Of a DNA stretch of 64,000 bases, positions 12,416 through 64,000 are shown piece after piece. The position numbers and the translations under genes were made by a program. Source of the DNA: Polaromonas hydrogenivorans (GTDB lineage: Bacteria; Pseudomonadota; Gammaproteobacteria; Burkholderiales; Burkholderiaceae_C); NCBI RefSeq assembly GCF_040105105.1, contig NZ_CP157676.1, positions 186,001-250,000 on the forward strand. Direction: 5' to 3'. Within the stretch, counting starts at the first letter, position 1. Each line of letters starts with the position of its first letter. The notes under the pieces were generated by a model. That model saw only the letters and a program-made list of their open reading frames with translations, searched no databases and was not told where the DNA came from.

Positions 12416-12658
12416 CGGGCTGATGTGAGGTAGAGATTGAACGCGGGATCTCATTGAGTCGTTTGACGATTCCCAGAGGCGTGTTGCAAAAAATTAGCAA
12501 TGCGAGTCGGTAGGAAGAATTACAAAGCGCCATTGGATCCAGAGGCTCGCTGAAAATCAGCAAATTGGAAGACCGCTTCTGGCCTATTGCCCGTGCGCCT
12601 ACACGCAAACCAAGTCGATTCTGATGCGTCTCTGATCTACGAAGCTCGCCTTGCATTA
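12416..12658. other. non-coding stretch after phnX
   Basis: Visibly less GC-rich than the phn genes. I see no recognisable gene or terminator; it ends at the inverted end of an IS630 remnant. Confidence 0.4.
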
Positions 12659-12855
12659 CCCATAAGTCAGTAATTTGACGAAAAAATCCTGAAATCTTTT
12701 TTGCTTGCAGTTTTTCCAGACAGGTATGAAACGGGATGGAGGGGAAATGGCGCATAACACGCTCGAAGAAATGTGCATTGTGGCCGTCAAACAAATGAAT
12801 GAAGGCAAGCATCCGACAACCGTGGCGGTCTCATTGGGGCTGAATCGGTCTCGTG
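12659..12855 (+). mobile_element. IS630-family remnant: left end plus first ~43 transposase codons
   Basis: Begins CCCATAAGTCAGTAAT after a TA, close to the end of the intact IS630-like element at 59248 (CTCACCAGTCAGTAAT). The ATG at 12726 opens MKRDGGEMAHNTLEEMCIV, and continues MNEGKHPTTVAVSLGLNRS, clearly related to the N-terminus of the intact transposase at 59314. Homology stops near 12855, so the rest was deleted. The lysR gene's end follows 52 bp later. Confidence 0.75.
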
Positions 12856-21487: not shown

Positions 21488-21655
21488 TGACTGAGTTGTT
21501 CCATGTTCTATCTTTCTCAAAACTCATCATTTCGGTGAAGTTTAAGAATATCATTTCGAGAAATATTTGTGAGAACGGAAGATCCTTGATTCTGCGTGCA
21601 GCACGCGTCAGACAACAAGGCTTCTCGCAATCCTCCGTTTACAAGAATACCCCCC
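21488..21655. promoter_or_regulatory. Tn3 res-site and divergent promoter region
   Basis: The 168-bp A+T-rich gap between divergent tnpR and tnpA is where Tn3 elements keep the three-part resolution site and both promoters. I see A+T-rich repeats such as ATATCATTTCGAGAAATAT around 21548-21566 but could not define subsites I-III. Confidence 0.6.
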
Positions 21656-24628
21656 ATGCCACGTCGTTCGATTCTGTCCACCACTGAGCGCGACAGCCTT
21701 CTTGCATTGCCTGAGGCCAAGGATGAACTGATTCGGCACTACACGCTCAGCGAAACCGACCTGTCGATCATTGGCCAGCATCGCGGGTCTGCGAATCGGC
21801 TTGGCTTTGCTGTCCAGCTTTGCTATTTGCGATTTCCTGGCATGGTCCTGGGTGTCGATGAACCACCGTTTGCGCCCTTGTTGCGTATGGTGGCGGCGCA
21901 GCTCAAAGTGCCGCTGGAAAGCTGGGATGAGTACGGGCAGCGCGAGCAAACCAGGCGGGAGCATCTGGTCGAGCTCCAAGCGATGTTCGGATTCAAGTCC
22001 TTCACCATGAGCGATTACAAACGAGAGGTGCATAAGCTGACCGAGTTGGCCTTGCAGACCGACAAGGGAATCGTGCTGGCCAGTGCGCTGGTCGAAAATC
22101 TCCGGCGGCAGAGCATCATCCTGCCTGTCATAAACGCCATCGAGCGCGCCAGCGCAGAAGCGATCACCCGCGCGAATCGGCACATTTACACCGCACTGAC
22201 GGACCCCCTGTCGGCCGTCCACCGCCACCGCCTGGACGAGCTGCTCCAGCGCAAGGAGGGCAGCAAGGGAACCTGGCTGGCGTGGCTGCGCCAGTCGCCG
22301 GCCAAGCCGAACTCACGGCACATGCTTGAACACATCGAGCGCCTCAAGGCCTGGCAGGCGCTGGACCTGCCGCAGGGCATCGAGCGGCTGCTCCACCAGA
22401 ACCGGCTGCTCAAGATCGCCCGCGAGGGCGGCCAGATGACGCCCGCCGACTTGGCCAGATTCGAGGTGCAGCGGCGCTATGCCACCCTGGTGGCGCTGGC
22501 CATCGAAGGCATGGCCACCGTCACCGATGAGATCATCGACCTGCACGACCGCATCATCGGCAAGCTGTTCAACGCGGCCAAGAACAAACACCAGCAGCAG
22601 TTCCAGGCCTCGGGCAAGGCGATCAACGACAAGGTGCGCCTGTACGGGCGCGTCGGCCAGGCGCTGCTCGAAGCCAAACAAAGCGGCGCCGATCCCTTCG
22701 CGGCCATCGAATCCGTCCTGTCCTGGGACGCGTTCACGGCCAGCGTCGGGGAAGCGCAAAAGCTCGCGCAGCCGGCGCAGTTCGATTTCCTGCACCGCAT
22801 TGGCGAGAGCTATGCCACGCTGCGCCGTTATGCGCCTCAATTCCTGGAGGTTCTGAAACTGCGGGCGGCGCCGGCCGCCAAGGGCGTGCTCGACGCCATC
22901 GACGTGCTGCGCGGCATGAATGCCGACAACGCCCGCAAGGTGCCTGCCGGCGCGCCGACCGCGTTCGTCAAGCCGCGCTGGGCCAGGCTGGTTCTGACTG
23001 ACGAGGGCATCGACCGGCGCTACTACGAGCTGTGCGCGCTGTCCGAACTCAAGAACGCATTGCGCTCGGGCGATGTCTGGGTGCAGGGCTCGCGCCAGTT
23101 CAAGGATTTCGAGGACTACCTGGTGCCCGCCGGGAAGTTCGCCGCGATGAAGCTGGCCAGCCAGCTGCCGCTGGCCGTTGACACCGATTGCGACCAGTAC
23201 CTGCAGAGCCGCTTGTCGCTGCTGGAGCAGCAGCTTGCCAGAGTCAACCGCTTGGCCGGAGCCAATGAGCTGCCGGACGCCACCATTACCACCGCGTCGG
23301 GCCTGAAGGTCACGCCGCTGGACGCGGCGGTGCCTGATGCCGCCCAGGCCCTGATCGACCAGGCAGCAGCGCTGCTGCCGCGCGTCAAGATCACCGAGTT
23401 GCTCATGGAGGTCGATGAGTGGACGGGTTTCACCCGGCACTTCACGCACCTCAAGACCGGGGGCACCGCCCCGGACAAGGCCTTGCTGCTCACGACGATC
23501 CTGGCCGACGGGATCAACCTTGGATTGAGCAAAATGGCCGAGTCCTGTCCCGGCACGACCTACGCTAGGCTGTCCTGGCTGCAGGCCTGGCACATCCGGG
23601 ACGAAACGTATTCATCGGCCCTGGGCGAACTCGTCAACGCGCAGCTGCGCCAACCATTTGCCGGGAACTGGGGCGACGGCACCACGTCCTCCTCGGATGG
23701 CCAGCGCTTCAAGGCGGGCGGCCGGGCCGAAAGCACCGGGCACATCAACCCGAAGTACGGCAGCGATCCGGGACGCACGCTCTACACGCACATCTCCGAC
23801 CAGTACGCGCCTTTCAGCGCCAAGGTGATCAACGTCGGCGTGCGCGACTCCACCTATGTGCTCGACGGCCTGCTGTACCACGAGTCCGACCTGGCGGTCG
23901 AGGAGCATTACACCGACACGGCGGGCTTTACCGATCATGTGTTTGCACTCATGCAACTGCTGGGCTTTCGCTTCGCGCCGCGCATCCGGGACCTGGGCGA
24001 CACCCGCCTGTTCATCCCCAAGGGCGATGCCAGCTATGACGCGCTTGGGCCGATGATCAGCAGCGACAGGCTGAACATCAAACATATTCGTGCCCACTGG
24101 GATGAGATTCTGCGGCTGGCCGCCTCGATCAAGCAGGGCACGGTGACGGCCTCGCTGATGCTCAGAAAGCTCGGCAGCTATCCGCGCCAGAACGGCCTGG
24201 CCGTTGCCCTGCGCGAACTCGGACGCATCGAGCGCACGCTGTTCATCCTTGACTGGCTGCAAAGCGTGGAGCTGCGCCGGCGCGTTCAGGTCGGGCTCAA
24301 CAAGGGCGAGGCGCGCAACGCCCTGGCCAGGGCAGTGTTCTTCTACCGGCTGGGGGAAATCCGCGATCGCAGCTTTCAGCAGCAGCGCTACCGCGCCAGT
24401 GGCCTGAACCTCATCACGGCGGCCATCGTGCTCTGGAATACCGTGTATCTGGAGCGGGCCGTCAACGCATTGCGTGGTCATGCAAAGCCCGTGGACGATG
24501 CGCTGCTGCAATACCTGTCGCCACTGGGCTGGGAGCACATCAACCTGACGGGCGACTACCTGTGGAAAAGCAGTGGCAAAGTCGGCGCTGGCAAGTTCAG
24601 GCCACTGCGGCCAATGTCACCACCTTAA
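21656..24628 (+). CDS. tnpA: Tn3-family transposase
   Basis: 990 residues, the standard length, starting [19 protein letters not shown] at ATG 21656; the open frame before it is not typical. The C-terminal half contains [53 protein letters not shown] and [16 protein letters not shown], the conserved catalytic region of Tn3 DDE transposases. The stop lies inside the right inverted repeat. It makes cointegrates and normally a 5-bp target duplication. Intact, so the element may be active. Confidence 0.95.
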
Positions 24629-32139: not shown

Positions 32140-33513
32140 ATGATTCAGATTCACCTAGACAATTCGGCAAATCTCAAGCGGCTTGAGGCCATGCTGGAGG
32201 ATGATCCGGTCGAGCACCGCTATCGGCTGGACCGCGCCGCGTTCACCGACGAGCAGTTGTTTGATCTCGAGATGAAATACATCTATGAGGGCAACTGGGT
32301 CTACCTCGCACACGAGAGCCAGATTCCGAACATCAACGATTTCCTGACGGTTTTCATTGGCCGCCAGCCAGTCGTGATCACGCGCAGCAAGGACGGCAAG
32401 CTCAACGCGCTGGCCAACACCTGCACGCACCGCGGTGCGATCCTGTGCCGGCACAAGAAGGGCAACAAGTCCAGCTTCACCTGCCCTTTCCATGGCTGGA
32501 CCTTCAACAACAGCGGCAAGCTGCTCAAGGTCAAGGACAACTCGCCCGACGCAGGCTACCCGCCGAGCTTCAACTGCGAGGGCAGCCACGACATGAAGAA
32601 GCTCGGCGCTTTCGAGAGCTACCGCGGCTTCCTGTTCGGCAGTGTCAACCCCGATGTGTTGCCCTTGAAAGAACACCTGGGCGAAGCGGCCAAGATCATC
32701 GACATGATCGTCGATCAGTCGCCCGAAGGCATCGAGGTGCTGCGCGGCGCGTCCACTTATACCTTTGACGGCAACTGGAAGCTGACCGCCGAGAACGGTG
32801 CCGATGGCTACCACGTTTCGTCGGTGCACTGGAACTACGCCGCGACGACAAACCGGCGCAGCGCCGACGGCAAGGTCGACACCGTCAAGGCGATGAACGC
32901 TGGCAAATGGGCGCAGATGGGGGGTGGCTCGTATTCGTTCAAGTACGGTCACATGGTGCTGTGGACCAACTGGTCAAACCCGGAAGACCGGCCGTTGTAT
33001 TCCAAGCGCGCTGAATGGATCGAGAAGTTCGGCCAGGCACGGGCCGACTGGATGCTGAGCAAGTCGCGCAATCTGTGCCTCTACCCGAACGTCTACCTGA
33101 TGGACCAGTTCAGCTCGCAGATCCGCATCGTCCGGCCGATCTCGGTCAACAAGAGCGAAATCACGATCTACTGCATCGCACCGAAGGGTGAGCCCGCCGA
33201 GGCGCGCGAGCGCCGCCTGCGCCAGTACGAAGATTTCTTCAATGCCACCGGCATGGCCACGCCAGACGATCTGGAAGAGTTCCGCTCCTGCCAGCAGGGC
33301 TACGCGGCGCGCGCGGTGAAGTGGAACGACCTGAGCCGCGGCGCAATGCACTGGGTCAAGGGCCCCGACGATACCGCCAACCTGATTGGCCTGAAGCCCG
33401 AGTTGAGCTGCATCAAGACCGAAGACGAAGGCCTGTACATCGGGCAGCATGAGTTCTGGCTCGAGACCATGAAAAAGGCCTACGTGGCCGAGCAATCCAG
33501 CGGAGGCCAATGA
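32140..33513 (+). CDS. benA: benzoate 1,2-dioxygenase large (alpha) subunit
   Basis: 457 residues. Rieske [2Fe-2S] ligands Cys95-x-His97 and Cys115-x2-His118 (CTHRGA, CPFHGW), then the mononuclear iron region [13 protein letters not shown]. It dihydroxylates benzoate to the 1,2-cis-diol carboxylate, taking electrons from BenC. The BenA/XylX/AntA group is close; benzoate is favoured because benK, benE, benD and cat genes are all here, though toluate or anthranilate cannot be excluded by eye. Overlaps benB by four bases. Confidence 0.93.
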
Positions 33514-41411: not shown

Positions 41412-41483
41412 TTTGTACAGTCCCACTGGTCGGCTACCAACCTCCGCGGCGCCTGGCCGGCTAGAGGATGCCAGAACCAGAGC

Positions 41484-41500
41484 GCGCCCACGCTGGGCGC
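41484..41500. repeat. small hairpin between convergent pcaF and amidohydrolase genes
   Basis: GCGCCCA-cgc-TGGGCGC, 7-bp perfect stem, just before the terminator. Also present in the second cassette near 62624. Confidence 0.45.
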
Positions 41501-41509
41501 ACCAAACAA

Positions 41510-41536
41510 AACGGTGCGCTCGGGCGCCGTTCTTTC
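41510..41536 (+). terminator. bidirectional rho-independent terminator after pcaF
   Basis: AACGGTGC-gctcgg-GCGCCGTT forms an 8-bp stem (one G-T pair) followed by CTTTC; read on the minus strand the same stem is followed by TTGTTTGG. It separates convergent pcaF and the M20 gene. An equivalent hairpin with a better T-run is at 62650. Confidence 0.65.
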
Positions 41537-41549
41537 AAAGGCGGCTGGC

Positions 41550-42722
41550 TCAGACCAGAAAGCGTTGCGCCAGCAGCGCCCAGTAGGCCGCGCCCAGAGC
41601 CAGGTTGTCATCGTTGAAATCGTAAGCCGGGTTGTGCACCATGCAGGCGCCGGCGCTGTCACCATCGCCGTTGCCGATGAACAGGTAGCTGCCGGGCACG
41701 CGTTCGAGCATAAAGGAAAAGTCTTCGCTGCCGGGCAGGGCCGGACCCTGCAACGTCACCTGGTCCGTTCCGACCAGTTCCAGGGCTACCTCGCGGGCGA
41801 ATGCGGTTTCCCCGGGCGTATTGACCAGCACCGCATAGCCGGGCCGCCAGTCGATCTGCGCCGTGATGCCAAAGCTTTCGGCCTGCGCGGTGATCAGCGT
41901 CTTGATGCGCTGCTCCAGCTTGCTGCGCACCTCGCGGTCCAGCGCACGCACGCTGATCTCCAGTTTCGCGGCTTGCGGGATCACGTTGTTGGCCTTGCCG
42001 GCGTGCAGGGCGCCCACGGTGACCACGGCCATCTGCAGCGGATCGATGTTGCGCGAGACGATGGTCTGCAGCGCCATGACAATGCTGGCGGCCGCCACGA
42101 CGGGGTCAACCGCGCGGTGCGGCATGGCGCCATGGCCACCCACGCCGGTCAGCGTGACGCTGGCGTAGTCCGACGAGGCCATGGCCGCGCCTTCGCGCAG
42201 CACCAGCCGGCCCTGCGGCACGCCGGGCATGTTGTGCATCGCGAAGACCGCGTCGCAGGGGTATTTGTCGAACAGGCCGTCGTCCATCATCCGCAGCGCA
42301 CCGCCGCCGCCTTCTTCGGCCGGCTGGAAGATCAGGTTCAGCGTGCCGCAAAAGTCCCCCTGCTGCGCAAGGTACTGCGCGGCTGCCAGCAGCATCGCCG
42401 TGTGGCCGTCGTGGCCGCAGGCGTGCATCACGCCCGCGTGGCAACTGGCGTGCGGCAGGCCGGTGGCTTCATGGATCGGCAACGCGTCCATGTCGGCGCG
42501 CAGCCCGAGCTGGCGCTTGCCGCTGCCGCGCACCAGCCGCCCCACCACGCCGGTGCCGCCCAGGCCGCGCTCGACCGCGTAGCCCCAGCTTTGCAGCTTT
42601 TCAGCCACCAGGGCCGAGGTGCGGTGCTCGTCGAACGCCAGTTCGGGGTGGCGGTGGATGTCGCGCCGCAGACCGATGAACGCATCGGCCTGCGCGTGAA
42701 GCTGTTCAAGAAGCGTGTGCAT
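41550..42722 (-). CDS. M20 family amidohydrolase (hippurate hydrolase type), copy 1
   Basis: 390 residues. Zinc/manganese-binding and catalytic motifs of M20D: LRADMDALPI, HACGHDGHT (Cys102, His104), FQPAEEGGGG (Glu136/137) and AMHNMPG (His163). Relatives hydrolyse N-acyl amino acids, including hippurate (benzoylglycine) to benzoate and glycine, which would feed the ben genes next door; that substrate is inference. It lies 9 bp after the Bug gene on the same strand. A ~94% identical copy is at 62695. Confidence 0.88.
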   Translation of the reverse strand: MHTLLEQLHAQADAFIGLRRDIHRHPELAFDEHRTSALVAEKLQSWGYAVERGLGGTGVVGRLVRGSGKRQLGLRADMDALPIHEATGLPHASCHAGVMHACGHDGHTAMLLAAAQYLAQQGDFCGTLNLIFQPAEEGGGGALRMMDDGLFDKYPCDAVFAMHNMPGVPQGRLVLREGAAMASSDYASVTLTGVGGHGAMPHRAVDPVVAAASIVMALQTIVSRNIDPLQMAVVTVGALHAGKANNVIPQAAKLEISVRALDREVRSKLEQRIKTLITAQAESFGITAQIDWRPGYAVLVNTPGETAFAREVALELVGTDQVTLQGPALPGSEDFSFMLERVPGSYLFIGNGDGDSAGACMVHNPAYDFNDDNLALGAAYWALLAQRFLV

Positions 42723-42731
42723 GGGCCGGGC

Positions 42732-43712
42732 TCACTGGGGTTGCAGGTTGATCGACTTGGCAATGGTGCGGTAGCGCGATGTCTCGGCCTCGAAGAACTT
42801 TGCCGACTCAGCCAGCGACATCGGTGGCGATGCCAGTTGCGTCTGCGCGGCCAGCTGCGAGCGCACCGAAGGGTCCTGCAGTGTCGCGCCTATCGCCTTG
42901 TGAAGCCGCTGAACCACGTTTTCAGGCGTGTTTTTCGCCACCATCAGGCCGCTCCAGATCTTGTACGAGAAATTCTTCAACTCCTTGCCTTCGCTGGCGG
43001 TTGGCACATTCTTGAGCAGCTCGGACCGCTGCCCGCCGAGCTGGCCGATCACCTTGAGCCGCCCCTGCTCGGCCAGCGCGCCCATGCCGGCGCTGTACAC
43101 CAACACGGCGAAATCGACCTGCCCGCCGCCGATGTCCTGCAGCAAGGGCGCATTGCCCTTGTACGGTGCATGCGTCAGCGTGATGCCCGCGATCTGCTGC
43201 ACGTTTTCAAGGATCAGGTGGTACAGCGAGCCAATGCCTACGCTGCCGTAGGTCAGCGGCTTGTCGCCCGACTTGCGCGCCAGCGCGATCAATTCATCGA
43301 CATTGCTGACCGGCAGGTCCTTGCGCACGACGAACACCATCACCGCCTCGGCCACCGGATGCACCAGGCGGAAGTCTTCGGCCTTGAATTTGACGGCCGC
43401 ATTGGCCAGCGCCGACAAGATCACCTCGTTAGGTGAACCCTGGAACAGGTAGTGGCCGTCGGCGGGCGCCGCCAGCACTTTTTGCGCTGCCAGCGCCCCG
43501 GCCACGCCGCCCAGGTTTTCCACCAAGACCGGCTGGCCGAGTTCCCTGGCAAGCGGCACGGTGAAGATGCGGGCAATCGAGTCCGACGGGCCGCCGGCCG
43601 GGTAGGGCACCATCAGGTTGACCGGCTTGCTCGGGTAAGTCTGGGCGAGGGCGCCTCCGGTGGCCAGCAACAGGCCTGCCAGCAGGGCACTGAATGTCTT
43701 GAATGCGTTCAT
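42732..43712 (-). CDS. Bug-family binding protein upstream of the amidohydrolase
   Basis: 326 residues from ATG 43712 (AAGGAGACATCCC upstream); the open frame begins earlier at 43748. Signal peptide MNAFKTFSALLAGLLLATGGALAQ, then YPSKPVNLMVPYPAGGPSD, a Bug motif. Cotranscribed with the M20 enzyme, so it may bind the same N-acyl compound. Divergent from a LysR gene with a 123-bp gap. Confidence 0.88.
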   Translation of the reverse strand: MNAFKTFSALLAGLLLATGGALAQTYPSKPVNLMVPYPAGGPSDSIARIFTVPLARELGQPVLVENLGGVAGALAAQKVLAAPADGHYLFQGSPNEVILSALANAAVKFKAEDFRLVHPVAEAVMVFVVRKDLPVSNVDELIALARKSGDKPLTYGSVGIGSLYHLILENVQQIAGITLTHAPYKGNAPLLQDIGGGQVDFAVLVYSAGMGALAEQGRLKVIGQLGGQRSELLKNVPTASEGKELKNFSYKIWSGLMVAKNTPENVVQRLHKAIGATLQDPSVRSQLAAQTQLASPPMSLAESAKFFEAETSRYRTIAKSINLQPQ

Positions 43713-57153: not shown

Positions 57154-58318
57154 ATACCAATCCCGATGGATAAAGAACCAATGCCAGCGATCGAAGTCTG
57201 AACGATATTGGCTCTTGATGGAGGTTGCGAAAATGTTATCTCAGCAAATCATTGATCAGTTCCAGCCCTATGATTTTGACCGTCTGGCCCGCAAAGAAAA
57301 GGATGGGCGCCGGCGACTGCGCCTGATCGCGCTGGCGCACCTCAAGGAGGGCAAGAGCTATCTCGAAGTGGCGGCTGCACTGCGCGTGACCCGCCACGCG
57401 GTCATGCGCTGGGTGCAATGGTTTACCGCCGGCGGCGTGGCCCGTCTGGCCGGTCTGCCGCACGACTGGAGTACGCAGCGCCTTGCCAAAGAGCACGAAG
57501 AGGCGTTTCGCCAGGCGGTCGAGCAACTTCAGCGCGAACGCGGCGGCGGCCGGGTTCGGGGGGAAGACATACGCCAGTTGCTGGCCCGGCAGTTTGGCGT
57601 GGCCTATAGCCTGAACGGTGTGTATGACTTGCTCAAACGCCTGGGGCTGGTATGGATTTCAGCACGCGCCGTCAGTCCCTACGCCGATCCGGTGGCACAA
57701 GCCGAATTCAAAAAAAAACTTCGTCCAGGAAGTCGAGGCAACGCTGCCGCAAGGCATTGCGCCTGAGCAAGTGGACATCTGGTTTCAAGATGAAATGCGC
57801 ATTGGCCAGCGCGGCACGCAAACGCGCCTGTGGGCGCGCAAGGGAACGCGCCCCCGGGTGGTGCGCCAGCAGCAGTCCGAATCGGCCTACATCTTTGGTG
57901 CCGTCTGTCCACAGCAGAGTAGCGCGGTCGGTCTGGTCATGCCGCAGGCCAATACCGAGGCGATGGCCCATCACCTGCAGGCCCTGAGCGAGGCGGTGCC
58001 TGCGGGACGCCACGCCGTGCTGGTGCTGGACCGCGCGGGATGGCACACCACGCCCAAACTGCCGCAGTTCCCAAACGTTTCCTTGTTGCCGCTGCCCGCA
58101 GGCTCACCCGAGCTCAACCCGGCCGAGCAGGTGTGGGAGCAACTGCGCGACCGGCACCTGGCCAACCGCTGCTACGACGGTTATGAGCAAATAGTCGACG
58201 CCTGCTGCGAGGCCTGGAATGCCTTCACGCAAATCCCTGGCGCTATCCGTTCCCTGTGCTCCCGAAACTGGGCAATACTGCCTTCGGCTTCGGTAATTTC
58301 ATGACACGGGATTGGTAT
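57154..58318 (+). mobile_element. IS630-family element, copy 2 (1165 bp)
   Basis: Same length and same ends (ATACCAATCCC at 57154-57164, GGGATTGGTAT at 58308-58318) as copy 1 at 26308-27472, in the opposite orientation. It ends 26 bp before the CTAG duplication of the IS701 element. Confidence 0.92.
57233..58304 (+). CDS. IS630-family transposase, two frames joined at an A9 run (copy 2)
   Basis: Frame A starts MLSQQIIDQFQPYDFDRLARKEK at ATG 57233 (GGAGG upstream) and ends at 57766; frame B runs to 58304 with WFQDEMRIGQRG, LVLDRAGWHTT and LNPAEQVWEQLRD. The junction is nine A at 57710-57718. Differs from copy 1 by scattered substitutions, so the copies are not from a very recent event. Confidence 0.9.
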
Positions 58319-58770
58319 GAGATGACGAAATGGTCTTAGGGTTTCTAGCGGTAGTTTGTTAAAGCCGAAGGTAGAGGTTAATCCCGTGGCCGGCGTTCAG
58401 GGCGCCGAGCAGCGCGGCGAACTCGGCTGGCGGGGCAGTGTCTGCAAAGGCGGCCCAGCAGCGCGCAAGCCAGTACGCCGGGGTCAGCCAGGCGCGCACC
58501 GCGCGCAGCAGGCGTGGCCAGCACGGCAGCGCCTTGACGCTGCCGGTTTTTTTCCCCCGCCCCAGGTGGCGTTACCGGCGTATCCGCAAGGTGCGTGGAC
58601 GAGTCGCTGGCGTGGTTTTGTCCGGCAGCGTGCCACCAGCAAAAGGCAAACGCGCAGCACACCAGCGTCCAGTGGCGGCGGATCGCCCGGTCGCTTCGGA
58701 CCATGAAGTCGGCCCAGCCGAGCTCGTCCTTCATTTGTTTGTAGCTTTGCTCCACCCAGTTGCGCAATCC

Positions 58771-58998
58771 GGGGGTCTAAGCCGGAACCGCCGAAAATTC
58801 TGCCGGAAAACATCACAGCCCGTGTTTCCGCCCACTCAACCTATCCGACACGGTTTGTTGTACATGTTTTTCCCGGTTAAGAGTACCGTTTTCGACCGAT
58901 GGCAGGCCGCGCCGGAAAACAACTGTTTAGCGTCAACCCGCACCAGTGCTGGCTTTGCGCGCTTGCCGGAAAAATCGGCGGTTCCGGCTTAGAACCCC
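58771..58998. mobile_element. 228-bp miniature element with Tn3-like GGGG inverted repeats
   Basis: Ends start GGGGGTCTAAGCCGGAAC and, inverted, GGGGTTCTAAGCCGGAAC; the first 24 bp match with one mismatch. It is flanked by a 5-bp duplication AATCC (58766-58770 and 58999-59003). No coding capacity. GGGG ends plus a 5-bp duplication are Tn3-family traits, so it fits a TIME (Tn3-derived miniature element). Its ends differ from those of the Tn3 at 20888. The motif GCCGGAA recurs inside it. Confidence 0.85.
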
Positions 58999-59247
58999 AA
59001 TCCGTACAAACGCACGACCTCGCCTAGCGGCGCCTGCTCGCGCGACAAGTTGGTGGTGAGATACCAGGTCGACAGGGCCGGCAACTCACACCGATCGGTC
59101 GTGGCGCACACTGCGCGCACCGGCCTGTCCGGGCCATAGCCGAACAGCGTGAGCTCGGCGGCCCACCAGCGCTCGGTGTGGCCGTCCCGAAAGCGGCGAA
59201 CCACTTTGCGCCAGGCGCGCAGCGGCAGCGCCTGCGCCGCATCCTTA

Positions 59248-60349
59248 CTCACCAGTCAGTAATTAAGCGTACAAATTTGGGAACTGTGTCGTTCGATATT
59301 TCTCCTACGTGGCATGAAACGAGACGGACGCAAATTGGCCCACAACACGCTGGAGGAAATGCGGGTTCTGGCGGTGCAACGCATGAACGAAGGCGAGCAT
59401 CCTGGCGATGTAGCCGCATCGCTGGGTATGCATCGTTCGTGGGGCTACAAGTGCCGTGCGATGGTCAAGGGGCGCGGACGAGGACTGCGGGCACTGCGTT
59501 CGAGCAAAGGGACGGGGCGACCGCGCAAGCTCACCCCCGCGCAAGAACGCCAGGTTTTTCGCTGGGTCAATGGCAAGCGCCCCGACCAGTACGGTTTTGA
59601 CTTCGGACTATGGACGCGCCAAATCGTGCAAGAGCTTGTGCTGGAGCGCTTTGAAGTATCCCTTTCGCTGGCCAGCATTGGGGCGCTACTGGCGCGCTTG
59701 GGGTTGACAGCGCAAAAACCCTTGGAGCGCGCTTACCAGCGCGACCCTGACGCGGTAGCGCGCTGGAAAAGCCAGACATACCCGGCCATTGCGAATGAAG
59801 CCCGAGGCAGCGGGGCCGACATTTTGTTCTGGGACGAGTCCGGCTTTCGGGCCGATGCAGTGCATGGCAAGACCTGGGCACCCCGTGGGCAAACCCCGGT
59901 GGTTGAGCGCCCAGGGCAACGCCAGAGCATCAGTGCAGCATCGGCCATCAGCGCCAAAGGTGCTTTCTGGTTTGCCACTTACAAAGGCGGTTTGACGGGG
60001 GAATTGTTCGCCCAGTTGCTCAAGAAATTGATGCGCCGGCGCAAAAAACCAGTGCGTCTGGTGGTCGATGGACTGCCTGCCCACAAGTCAGCGTGCGTCA
60101 AGGAGTATGTGGCCAGCACTCACGGGAAACTGACGCTTCACTTCTTGCCCGGTTATGCCCCAGACCTCAATCCAGACGAACTGGTATGGAGCCACGCCAA
60201 GCGTACGGGTGTGGCGCGCTCACCGCTGAAGGCGGGTGAAAACCTGCAGTGCCGCGTGGATGCGCAGATGCAAAACATCGCGAACGACCCAGCCCTGGTG
60301 AAGTCATTTTTCCGCCATCCTTCTGTCTCCTATATTACTGACTGGTGAG
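59248..60349 (+). mobile_element. IS630-like element, intact (1102 bp), inserted in the IS701 transposase
   Basis: Perfect 16-bp ends CTCACCAGTCAGTAAT (59248-59263; inverted at 60334-60349) flanked by TA (59246-59247 and 60350-60351). A degraded relative is at 12659-12855. Confidence 0.92.
59314..60348 (+). CDS. IS630-family transposase (single frame)
   Basis: 344 residues. N-terminal helix-turn-helix EHPGDVAASLGMHRSWGYK; catalytic DDE residues in LFWDESGFRADAVHGKTWAP, LVVDGLPAHKS and LNPDELVWSHAKR. The stop lies inside the right end. Intact, so the element is possibly active. Confidence 0.93.
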   Translation: MKRDGRKLAHNTLEEMRVLAVQRMNEGEHPGDVAASLGMHRSWGYKCRAMVKGRGRGLRALRSSKGTGRPRKLTPAQERQVFRWVNGKRPDQYGFDFGLWTRQIVQELVLERFEVSLSLASIGALLARLGLTAQKPLERAYQRDPDAVARWKSQTYPAIANEARGSGADILFWDESGFRADAVHGKTWAPRGQTPVVERPGQRQSISAASAISAKGAFWFATYKGGLTGELFAQLLKKLMRRRKKPVRLVVDGLPAHKSACVKEYVASTHGKLTLHFLPGYAPDLNPDELVWSHAKRTGVARSPLKAGENLQCRVDAQMQNIANDPALVKSFFRHPSVSYITDW

Positions 60350-60861
60350 TAAATGAATGGTCCGCCTCGACCGGCGCCCAGCCGCGCCCGAGCGCGCCGC
60401 GGCGCGCCAGTACATGGGGCAGGCAGCGCTTCAGCAGAGCCTCTTCAAGGGCATTGTTGTCGCCATAAAAGCAGTCCGATACGATGGCGCTGAACGGGAT
60501 GTGTGCGGCCTGCGCCTGCTCGACCAAGGCCAGCGCAATTTCCGGTTTGGTGCGAAACGCCGCATCGTGCTTGCCATCAGCCAGTCGCGCTGCCGGCGTG
60601 TACGGCGCTACATGCAGCGGGTAGTAATGCGCCTCGTCGGCCCACAGCGTGGTCACGGCCACGATGCCGTTGTCGATTTTCCCGACCGAGCCCAGATACT
60701 GGCGCGCCACGTGATCGGTGGCACTGCCCTCCTTGCGGTCACCCGTGTCATCGATCACCAGCACACCGTGCGCCGACGGAGCAGTGGCCGGTTCATCTGC
60801 CAGCAGCGCCAGGCGCTGCGCATTGATCGCCTCGGCGTCCCAGGTGGCCTCGGACAGGAAA

Positions 60862-62172
60862 GGGCGCGTTAACAAATAAGTTGGTCAGTTTAGGTCAGAG
60901 CGAATGCAGTAGTTCCAATCTCCATGAAACTCATGCCGCTCGAGCTTGATGGCGGCGAAGTCTTCATCGCAGACCACCTGCCCTTTGGGGTACTCGGCGC
61001 TGTCGAGTTCGGCGCGAACGCTCAGGCCGCTGCGTGTTTTGGTGCCGGCAATCAGGCTGACAATGACCTCGTGACTGATCAAGGGGCGCCCGCGCCAGTT
61101 CATCGTGATGAACGAGAACAGTCGGTGCTCGATCTTGTTCCACTTGCTCGTGCCCGGCGGGAAGTGATGCACTTCAATGTCCAGTCCCGTCTCCTGCGCC
61201 AGGCGGCTCAATTCGAGCTTCCAAAGCCGCACGCGATGCCCATTGCTGCCGCCGCCGTCAGCAGTGATGAGCAGCCGTCGGGCTTGCGGGTAGCGTTCTT
61301 GCCCCATGCTCAGCCACCAACGCCGGATCGTCTGCACGGCAAAGGCTGAGGTGTCATGGTCGGTGCCAACGCCCACCCAGGCTTCGTCCGCGCCGATGTC
61401 ATAGACCCCGTAAGGATTGGCCCGCCCGAGCTCCTTGTCAATGAAGTCATGAACCTTCACTTTGACGGGTTCGCCACCGGGCAGCCACTGCTGCCCGGCG
61501 TTCTTGTACGCGCCGACCAGTTCCTTTTTCTTCGTGTCCACCGAGATCACCGGCACGCCGGCCTCCAGGGCCGCAGCGACCCGGCTGTTGATGTGCTCGA
61601 ACTGGGCGTTGCGATCAGGACTCTGGTTGCCTTCGATGGCCTTGACGTTGGACTGCAAACTGTAGTTCTGGCTCTTGAGGAGTTTGCCCACCACCACGTG
61701 GCTCACTGCGTGCCCTTTGGCTTTGAGTTCGTCGGCCAAATTACGCAAACTCTTGCAAGTCCAACGTAGAGGCGACTCCGGGTCCCCGCGGGTCGTTGCG
61801 TCCACGAGCGCCAGCAGGTCTGGCAGCAGCGTTGCATCCTTGAGCTCGATCTTTTTGCGCCCTGCGCCGGCCTGGCGCGTGCGACCTGGCAGTGCGTGCG
61901 TCTGCTGTGCGGCTTGCCCCGTCTGCCCTATCGCCTCGATTTCACTGAGTCCGGCCCTGATGGTGGTGCGCGACACGCCTGTGGCCAGCGCGACGGCAGC
62001 CACGCCGCCGCGCCCCAGAACCTTTGCCTCAACGCCCACCAGCAGGCGCCTTTGCCGCTCGTCGAGCGCCTCGCGCATCACTTCCCACCGTTGCTTGACC
62101 ACTGAATCAATTGCCATACGCCAGAGAATATCTGATCATGGTTAATTGAAAAAGTTATTTGTTAACGAGCCC
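60862..62172 (-). mobile_element. ISAzo13-like element (1311 bp) inserted in the IS701 transposase
   Basis: 25-bp imperfect ends GGGCGCGTTAACAAATAAG and, inverted, GGGCTCGTTAACAAATAAC, flanked by a 3-bp AAA duplication (60859-60861, 62173-62175). Excision restores the IS701 reading frame. Confidence 0.9.
60885..62117 (-). CDS. ISAzo13-family transposase
   Basis: 410 residues. N-terminal helix-turn-helix GGVAAVALATGVSRTTIRAGLSEIE; catalytic Asp in PVISVDTKKKELVG, Asp in LLITADGGGSNGHR and Glu in TSKWNKIEHRLFSFI, the ISAzo13 pattern. Intact reading frame. Confidence 0.9.
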   Translation of the reverse strand: MAIDSVVKQRWEVMREALDERQRRLLVGVEAKVLGRGGVAAVALATGVSRTTIRAGLSEIEAIGQTGQAAQQTHALPGRTRQAGAGRKKIELKDATLLPDLLALVDATTRGDPESPLRWTCKSLRNLADELKAKGHAVSHVVVGKLLKSQNYSLQSNVKAIEGNQSPDRNAQFEHINSRVAAALEAGVPVISVDTKKKELVGAYKNAGQQWLPGGEPVKVKVHDFIDKELGRANPYGVYDIGADEAWVGVGTDHDTSAFAVQTIRRWWLSMGQERYPQARRLLITADGGGSNGHRVRLWKLELSRLAQETGLDIEVHHFPPGTSKWNKIEHRLFSFITMNWRGRPLISHEVIVSLIAGTKTRSGLSVRAELDSAEYPKGQVVCDEDFAAIKLERHEFHGDWNYCIRSDLN

Positions 62173-62649
62173 AAAAACTGCAGCCGCTGCACTTCGGCTA
62201 TCTGAGCTTGGACCAAGGGCTCGGCGCCGACCAGCGCCGTCAGCGTCTTGGACCGGTCGCGCGGCAGCAGCAATCCAGTCAGATAGGTGCGAAAGCCCTG
62301 GCGTTGGGCCAGCGTCTGGAACAAAGGGTCGAACTGCACCGCAAAAGCCTCCAGGGATCCCGGTGCAGGAGGACATGCAAGACGAGCAGACATGATGTGA
62401 ACCCTCCTGTCACTTGGACTGGCTGGGCACTACTTGGTTCCACAAACTACCGCTAGCATTCGTTTTAGCCAGCAAACGAATATTTAGCATCGAATATGCC
62501 AATGGTGCGGGCGTAGTCTGCGCAAGAAGCTATGAATTAAGTAGCAAAAACTCGCTGAGTTCCTTGAATGCTGTGAATGAAATTCAGGGTGATTCCGCTC
62601 TGGATGATTGTCAGAGCCAGAGCGCGCCCATGCTGGGCGCACCAAACAA

Positions 62650-62677
62650 AACGGCGCGCTCGGGTGCCGTTTTTTTC
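62650..62677 (+). terminator. rho-independent terminator-like hairpin
   Basis: AACGGCGC-gctcgg-GTGCCGTT (8-bp stem with a G-T pair) followed by TTTTTTT. Homologous to the hairpin at 41510. On the minus strand it ends the M20 gene copy 2. Confidence 0.65.
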
Positions 62678-62694
62678 AAGGCACTGCGACTGGC

Positions 62695-63867
62695 TCAGAC
62701 CAGAAAGCGTTGCGCCAGCAGCGCCCAGTAGGCCGCGCCCAGGGGCAGGCTGGCGTCGTTGAAGTCGTAGCCGGGGTTGTGCACCATGCAGGCGCCGGCG
62801 CTGTCGCCTTCGCCGTTGCCGATCAGCAAATAGCTGCCGGGCACGCGCTCGAGCATGAAGGCGAAGTCTTCACTGCCGGACAAGGCAGGGCCCTGCAGGG
62901 TCACCTGCTCGGCGCCGACCAGTTCCAGGGCGACCTCGCGGGCAAAAGCGGTTTCCCCGGGCGTATTGACCAGTACCGCATAGCCGGGCCGCCAGTCGAT
63001 CTGTGCCGTGACGCCAAAGCTTTCGGCCTGTGCGGTGATCAGCGCCTTGATGCGCTGCTCCAGCTTGCTGCGCACCTCGCGGTCCAGCGCACGCACGCTG
63101 ATCTCCAGTGTCGCGGCTTGCGGGATCACGTTGTTGGCCTTGCCGGCGTGCAGGGCGCCCACGGTGACCACAGCCATCTGCAGCGGGTCGATGTTGCGCG
63201 AGACGATGGTCTGCAGCGCCATGACAATGCTGGCGGCCGCCACGACGGGGTCAACCGCGCGGTGCGGCATGGCGCCATGGCCGCCCACGCCGGTCAGCGT
63301 GACAGTGGCATAGTCCGACGAGGCCATGGCCGCGCCTTCGCGCAGCACCAGCCGGCCCTGCGGCACGCCGGGCATGTTGTGCATCGCGAAGACCGCGTCG
63401 CACGGGTATTTGTCGAACAGGCCGCCCTCCATCATGCGCAGCGCGCCGCCGCCGCCTTCTTCGGCTGGCTGGAAGATCAGGTTCAGCGTGCCGGTAAAGT
63501 CCCCGTGCTCCGCCAGGTGCTGGGCGGCGGCCAGCAGCATCGCCGTGTGGCCGTCGTGGCCGCAGGCGTGCATCACGCCCTCGTGGCAACTGGCGTGCGG
63601 CAGGCCGGTGGCTTCAATGATCGGCAGCGCATCCATGTCGGCGCGCAGCCCGAGCTGGCGCTTGCCGCTGCCGCGCACCAGCCGCCCCACCACGCCGGTG
63701 CCGCCCAGGCCGCGCTCGACCGCGTAGCCCCAGCCCTGCAGCTTGTCGGCTACCAGGGCCGAGGTGCGGTGTTCGTCAAAGGCCAGTTCGGGATGGCGGT
63801 GGATGTCTTGCCGCAGGGCGATGAAGGCATCGGCCTGCGCATGGAGTTGTTTAAGCAGCGTGTGCAT
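62695..63867 (-). CDS. M20 family amidohydrolase (hippurate hydrolase type), copy 2
   Basis: 390 residues with all metal ligands: LRADMDALPI, HACGHDGHT, FQPAEEGGGG and AMHNMPG. About 94% identical to the protein at 41550; most changes lie in surface-like positions (for example Q120 region AQQGDFCG against AEHGDFTG). Both copies look functional. It follows a Bug gene copy by 9 bp, the same operon layout. Confidence 0.88.
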   Translation of the reverse strand: MHTLLKQLHAQADAFIALRQDIHRHPELAFDEHRTSALVADKLQGWGYAVERGLGGTGVVGRLVRGSGKRQLGLRADMDALPIIEATGLPHASCHEGVMHACGHDGHTAMLLAAAQHLAEHGDFTGTLNLIFQPAEEGGGGALRMMEGGLFDKYPCDAVFAMHNMPGVPQGRLVLREGAAMASSDYATVTLTGVGGHGAMPHRAVDPVVAAASIVMALQTIVSRNIDPLQMAVVTVGALHAGKANNVIPQAATLEISVRALDREVRSKLEQRIKALITAQAESFGVTAQIDWRPGYAVLVNTPGETAFAREVALELVGAEQVTLQGPALSGSEDFAFMLERVPGSYLLIGNGEGDSAGACMVHNPGYDFNDASLPLGAAYWALLAQRFLV

Positions 63868-63876
63868 GGGCCGGGC

Positions 63877-64000
63877 TCACTGCGGTTGCAGGTTGATCGA
63901 CTTGGCAATGGTGCGGTAGCGCGACGTCTCGGCTTCGAAGAACTTGCTTGACTCGGCCAGCGACATGGGCGGCGATGCCAGTTGCGTCTGCGCGGCCAAC
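63877..64000 (-). CDS. Bug-family binding protein, C-terminal part (runs off window)
   Basis: The last 40 or so codons of a Bug protein very similar to that at 42732 (ends INLQPQ); the C-terminal helix SLAESSKFFEAETSRYRTIAKS is recognisable. The gene continues beyond the window. Confidence 0.85.
   Translation of the reverse strand, partial: LAAQTQLASPPMSLAESSKFFEAETSRYRTIAKSINLQPQ

Follow-up and report, generated by a model that had tools for sequence, protein, structure and literature searches.

Related mobile elements

Mobile elements that lie within other mobile elements are already well known. In PMC3189936, a copy of ISPsy17, ISPsy17.T5, is described as interrupted by ISPsy19 and MITEPsy1. 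MITEPsy2, a miniature element of the Pseudomonas syringae group, is covered in three papers (PMC3189936, PMC3191145 and PMC6354349). It is 228 nt long, lacks a transposase gene and has ends like those of the Tn3-family element ISPsy30 (PMC3189936). These papers also give a 5-nt duplication for the MITEPsy2 copy in pPsv48A and a deletion in pPsv48C, between two MITEPsy2 copies, that starts at 32,807 (PMC6354349). Short non-autonomous elements of the Tn3 type (TIME) are described with 5- or 6-bp duplications, and TIME1-TIME4 measure 262 bp (PMC4133298). Miniature elements have been reported in Polaromonas according to PMC10969869, which cites a paper on strain JS666.

The locus analysed here is a clean case involving ordinary families: one insertion sequence entered by three others, textbook-clear and with empty sites in the same genome as controls. 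It leaves the known picture of transposition unchanged. As in ISPsy17.T5, an insertion sequence is broken by another insertion sequence and a miniature element; the case there is a tandem insertion of two elements, whereas three separate sites were used here. Our literature search found no paper on this locus, which does not deny that one exists.

Structure of the interrupted element

The genome surveyed comprises 5.37 Mb in six contigs, and the window, meaning the whole stretch of 64,000 nucleotides that was analysed, corresponds to C2:186001-250000. Within an IS701-family element lie, from left to right, a miniature element, an IS630-family element and an ISAzo13-family element, all three complete (Table 1). 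The initial annotation had reported four elements, three of them with AATCC, TA and AAA duplications. We found all four with their ends where they had been placed, and all four duplications, the CTAG of the IS701 element included, are perfect. Since the IS701 transposase gene is on the minus strand, its order of interruption is ISAzo13 at about codon 73, IS630 at about codon 243 and the miniature element at about codon 322.

Table 1. Features of the IS701-family element and its inserts, in window positions
Feature	Position	Strand	Details or basis
CTAG target duplication, left of IS701 element	58345..58348		Sequence; CTAG also at sisters L012 and L013
IS701-family element	58349..62452	-	4104 bp, or 1453 bp once the inserts are taken out; inverted repeat, NF033540 on four coding pieces, sister copies
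IS701 element ends, CGGTAGTTTGT			Inverted repeat
IS701 transposase codons 322-449 and stop	58378..58770	-	
AATCC duplication, left of miniature element	58766..58770		
MITEPsy2-like miniature element	58771..58998		228 bp; Tn3-type ends, no transposase gene; inverted repeat, ends, relatives
AATCC duplication, right of miniature element	58999..59003		
IS701 transposase codons 244 to ~322	58999..59246	-	
TA duplication, left of IS630-family insert	59246..59247		
IS630-family insert	59248..60349	+	1102 bp; open reading frame of 344 aa at 59314-60348
TA duplication, right of IS630-family insert	60350..60351		
IS701 transposase codons 74-243, DDE_5 domain	60351..60860	-	
AAA duplication, left of ISAzo13-family insert	60859..60861		
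ISAzo13-family insert	60862..62172	-	1311 bp; open reading frame of 410 aa at 60885-62117; inverted repeat
AAA duplication, right of ISAzo13-family insert	62173..62175		
IS701 transposase codons 1-73 (L013 numbering)	62175..62393	-	tblastn
Right CTAG duplication of the IS701 element	62453..62456		

Removing the three inserts (228, 1102 and 1311 bp) together with one duplication copy each takes the 4104 bp down to 1453 bp, the length given in the annotation. The intact sister L013 aligns to all four pieces of the transposase gene. If bases were uniform, four perfect duplications (4+5+2+3 bases, fixed ends) would arise by chance with a probability of about 4e-9; the families prefer certain targets (CTAG, TA), which raises the true value.

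We agree with the annotation that the IS701 element arrived first and that each of the three inserts came by a transposition of its own. Its description of the elements as nested in one another does not fit: a single IS701 element contains the three inserts as neighbours, none inside another, and for this reason their relative order cannot be read. We put a probability of about 0.95 on a history in which the IS701 element entered CTAG and was then invaded independently by three elements of known families, each in the manner of its family. The IS701-family element would have inserted at CTAG and duplicated it. The Tn3-type miniature element would have entered with a 5-bp duplication, presumably moved in trans by a Tn3-family transposase, the IS630-family element would have entered at a TA dinucleotide, and the ISAzo13-family element with a 3-bp duplication. 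Whichever came first would have broken the transposase gene; the other two would have broken nothing further and may have been neutral.

Family assignment and state of the transposase gene

The names IS701, IS630 and ISAzo13 given in the annotation agree with the domain and family models. IS701-family elements generate a 4-bp target duplication of the kind YTAR. The window element belongs to this family, with CTAG flanks here and at both ends of L012 and L013, and has in common with it the transposase model, the CTAG duplication and short inverted repeats; it differs in being interrupted three times. The largest coding piece (60330-60875) scored 155 bits with NF033540, the IS701 transposase model, against a cut-off of 150. 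The other three fell below the cut-off and matched different parts of the model, the pattern expected of fragments. No plasmid record matching L013 did so at 60% identity or more (best identity below 60% in 587 of 587 matching records).

In a tblastn comparison, codons 1-449 of L013 were covered in four pieces, with no stop in the IS701 DNA. The pieces and L013 share 449 codons with 0 stops, no frameshift and a dN/dS of 0.21. Against L012 (459 codons) the ratio was 0.25 with one stop, located where the longer L012 N-terminus aligns to DNA ahead of the start. The uninterrupted pair L013-L012 gave 0.25. By stops, frameshifts and dN/dS, the gene shows no sign of decay preceding the inserts, although pairwise dN/dS is a mean over both lineages and brief decay would escape it.

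The IS630-family insert scored 218.6 bits with NF033545 (cut-off 100), and shares with its family the TA duplication and an open DDE_3 transposase frame. A second copy, 1102 bp identical and also flanked by TA, lies within C2:323681-324788. Because this identical copy is on the same contig, the insert is probably recent. Its best plasmid match across the whole element was 78.8% (Polaromonas sp. P1-6). The ISAzo13-family insert, with ends GGGCGCGTTAACAAATAA and GGGCTCGTTAACAAATAA and an AAA duplication, scored 574.6 bits with NF033519 (cut-off 200); the full-length transposase model and inverted terminal repeats are common to it and its family. Its protein was 57.6-59.4% identical in 15 plasmid records among the matches listed, and 6 of 182 matching records reached 60-80%. 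Elsewhere in the host genome, it was matched at 67% DNA identity over 829 bp.

Empty sites in sister copies and relatives

Other IS701 copies in the host genome are about 83-90% identical to the window element, piece by piece. L012 (contig C3, frame of 467 aa) and L013 (contig C5, frame of 449 aa) are uninterrupted at all three insert sites. L014 holds two inverted IS701 copies, uninterrupted at the miniature-element and ISAzo13 sites, with about 170 bases missing beside the IS630 site. These copies flank IS630-family frames (L014:1320-6007, contig C1). In L015, a partial copy, the ISAzo13 site is uninterrupted (51/60), and no homology was found at the miniature-element and IS630 sites (30/60 and 32/60).

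These sister copies supply independent proof of the insertions. For the empty sites, 30+30 bases of flank were joined and compared without gaps with L012, L013, L014 and L023, the last from the relative G019. Across these four loci, agreement was 46-56/60 at the miniature-element site, 40-51/60 at the IS630 site and 53-54/60 at the ISAzo13 site. All four lack TA at the IS630 insertion point, so the TA target probably arose within the window copy's own lineage.

A search for the whole locus in 61 genomes, the host included (best 4 candidates per genome), gave some match in 16. Under that scope, long IS701 matches outside the host were confined to G019, where the pieces matched consecutively on contig C21, without inserts. 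Among the matches listed for 60 relatives (best 4 candidates per genome), none spanned an IS701-insert junction or showed an intermediate state. The miniature element was found in 5 of 61 genomes (best 12 candidates per genome), at full length outside the host only in G024, and no shared insertion of it was seen among the matches listed in this search. The G024 match lies at contig positions 12434-12660, the same coordinates as the match in pPNAP06, which points to Polaromonas as the genus. Each flank of the IS701 element was also used as a query of its own against 61 genomes of the genus, one of them the host. Among the matches listed, G067 ranked highest after the host for the right flank and for the left, but its two matches are about 1.8 Mb apart on one contig; with the flanks so far apart, no orthologous empty IS701 site was seen.

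Alternative histories

The clustering of inserts invites other readings. The IS701 element could have died by point mutations before any insert arrived, the inserts then accumulating in a decaying pseudogene. Three inserts in 1.45 kb are many: the probability of at least three is about 5e-4 per element at 0.1 inserts per kb and about 4e-2 at 0.5 per kb, both densities being assumptions. Yet the IS701 pieces contain no stop or frameshift, and their dN/dS, averaged over both lineages, is like that between two uninterrupted sisters, which makes this sequence of events quite improbable. The annotation's phrase 'already dead element' is right to the extent that at least two of the three inserts entered an interrupted gene; we found no other lesion in the 449 codons.

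It is also unlikely that the locus is a true hot spot, drawing in elements through features of its target sequence, despite the five elements within 57157-62452 (counting a separate upstream IS630-family element) and the fact that two IS701 copies, in the window and in L012, both border copies of one dispersed repeat. The targets differ (CTAG, AATCC, TA, AAA), the compared sister copies are without any of these inserts at these sites, and loss of selection accounts for the clustering equally well. The 'repeated targeting' that had been proposed is not supported: the duplicated targets of the inserts differ (AATCC, TA and AAA), and no intermediate state was seen among the matches listed for 60 relatives (best 4 candidates per genome). 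As close neighbours, two or more of the inserts might have come together as one compound transposon, but every insert is bounded by a matched pair of ends and a duplication of its own, IS701 coding sequence separates them, and the junctions already contradict such an origin, whose probability we consider negligible.

The 228-bp miniature element

On sequence grounds, the miniature element of the window belongs with MITEPsy2. It has the same 228 nt, the same lack of a transposase gene, the common ends GGGG.T.TAAGCC.GAACCGCCGA, which are of ISPsy30 type, and full-length homology to a described copy. Over positions 1-228 it is 76.2% identical to 32808-33035 of NC_019292.2 (P. savastanoi, 42,104 bp), which we take for pPsv48C from its organism, length and place. 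It differs from MITEPsy2 in its identity of about 72-78% to full-length Pseudomonas plasmid copies among the matches listed, and in its host, probably a betaproteobacterium. Agreement over the 228 positions was 217 for pPNAP06, a plasmid of P. naphthalenivorans CJ2 (match at 12434-12660), 169 each for Azotobacter and P. amygdali, and 167 for P. cerasi. The range of MITEPsy2-type elements probably extends to Polaromonas, with a 5-bp duplication at the window copy.

In PLSDB, 128 plasmid records matched the element; 100 came from Pseudomonas, and in 62 the match took in 80% or more of its length. Record span equalled query span in all of the best 20 of these 128. In a set of 60 matches from the 128 records, 29 covered at least 95% of the length, 22 with equal span and 7 off by 1-3 bases. 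A pattern scan with 213-243 bp allowed picked out four copies, spread over three stretches and each 228 bp long.

The window copy is flanked by AATCC/AATCC, a 5-bp duplication in common with the MITEPsy2 copy in pPsv48A and with TIME elements, which at 262 bp (TIME1-TIME4) are longer. A perfect 5-bp duplication was present in one of five other copies whose flanks were compared (Azotobacter L053, TTCCA/TTCCA); pPNAP06, L052 and the two L054 copies had no such duplication. The terms 'MITEPsy', '228' and 'Polaromonas' did not occur in the main text of PMC4133298 and of a second paper on TIME-type elements. A conceivable, if doubtful, reading is that the element is ancient, of Tn3 type, and has passed between beta- and gammaproteobacteria with its length almost unchanged at about 72-78% identity; this would point to selection on spacing (for example, of an internal resolution site) as well as on its ends.

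Search for a Tn3-family helper

The host genome has seven matches to Tn3 transposases, four of which span the complete domain and lie within frames of 1005-1017 aa. A long open frame of this family (1010 aa) lies in the window at 21596-24628. In the four 4.2-kb loci searched, none of the transposases lay between ends resembling the miniature element's (match of at least 18/24); for two of the four, those on C5, the search reached about 1.5 kb to either side of the domain. Around the four transposases, such ends occurred only on C6, beyond the transposase and facing away. One of the four lies in the window, and over the window's full length the only such ends are the miniature element's own two.

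Two pieces on C6, which match the two ends of the miniature element at 91% each (165 and 86 bases), were considered as an autonomous parent. This candidate was dropped because four ends alternate in direction and there is no Tn3-transposase match between the pieces. The region (L009:2152-5474) has four alternating Tn3-type ends and 85-bp inverted arms beside a Tn3-family transposase, and is perhaps a mosaic.

Repeats around the locus

A separate IS630-family element of another group occupies 57157-58315, with TA on both sides, and stops 29 bp short of the left CTAG. Two frames share its transposase, with the break near an A-run at 57711, likewise in other copies. Elsewhere in the genome, a copy at C2:143418 is 99% identical, and eleven more match at 87-94% along stretches longer than 900 bases. 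To the right, a dispersed repeat of about 140 bp (62457-62594) starts directly at the IS701 end and has seven further genomic matches of 95-145 bp at 73-81%. The sister IS701 element in L012 also borders a copy of this repeat. An M20 peptidase region is present twice in the window (41469-42853 and 62609-63998, 92% identical), and a third on C5 is 89% identical.
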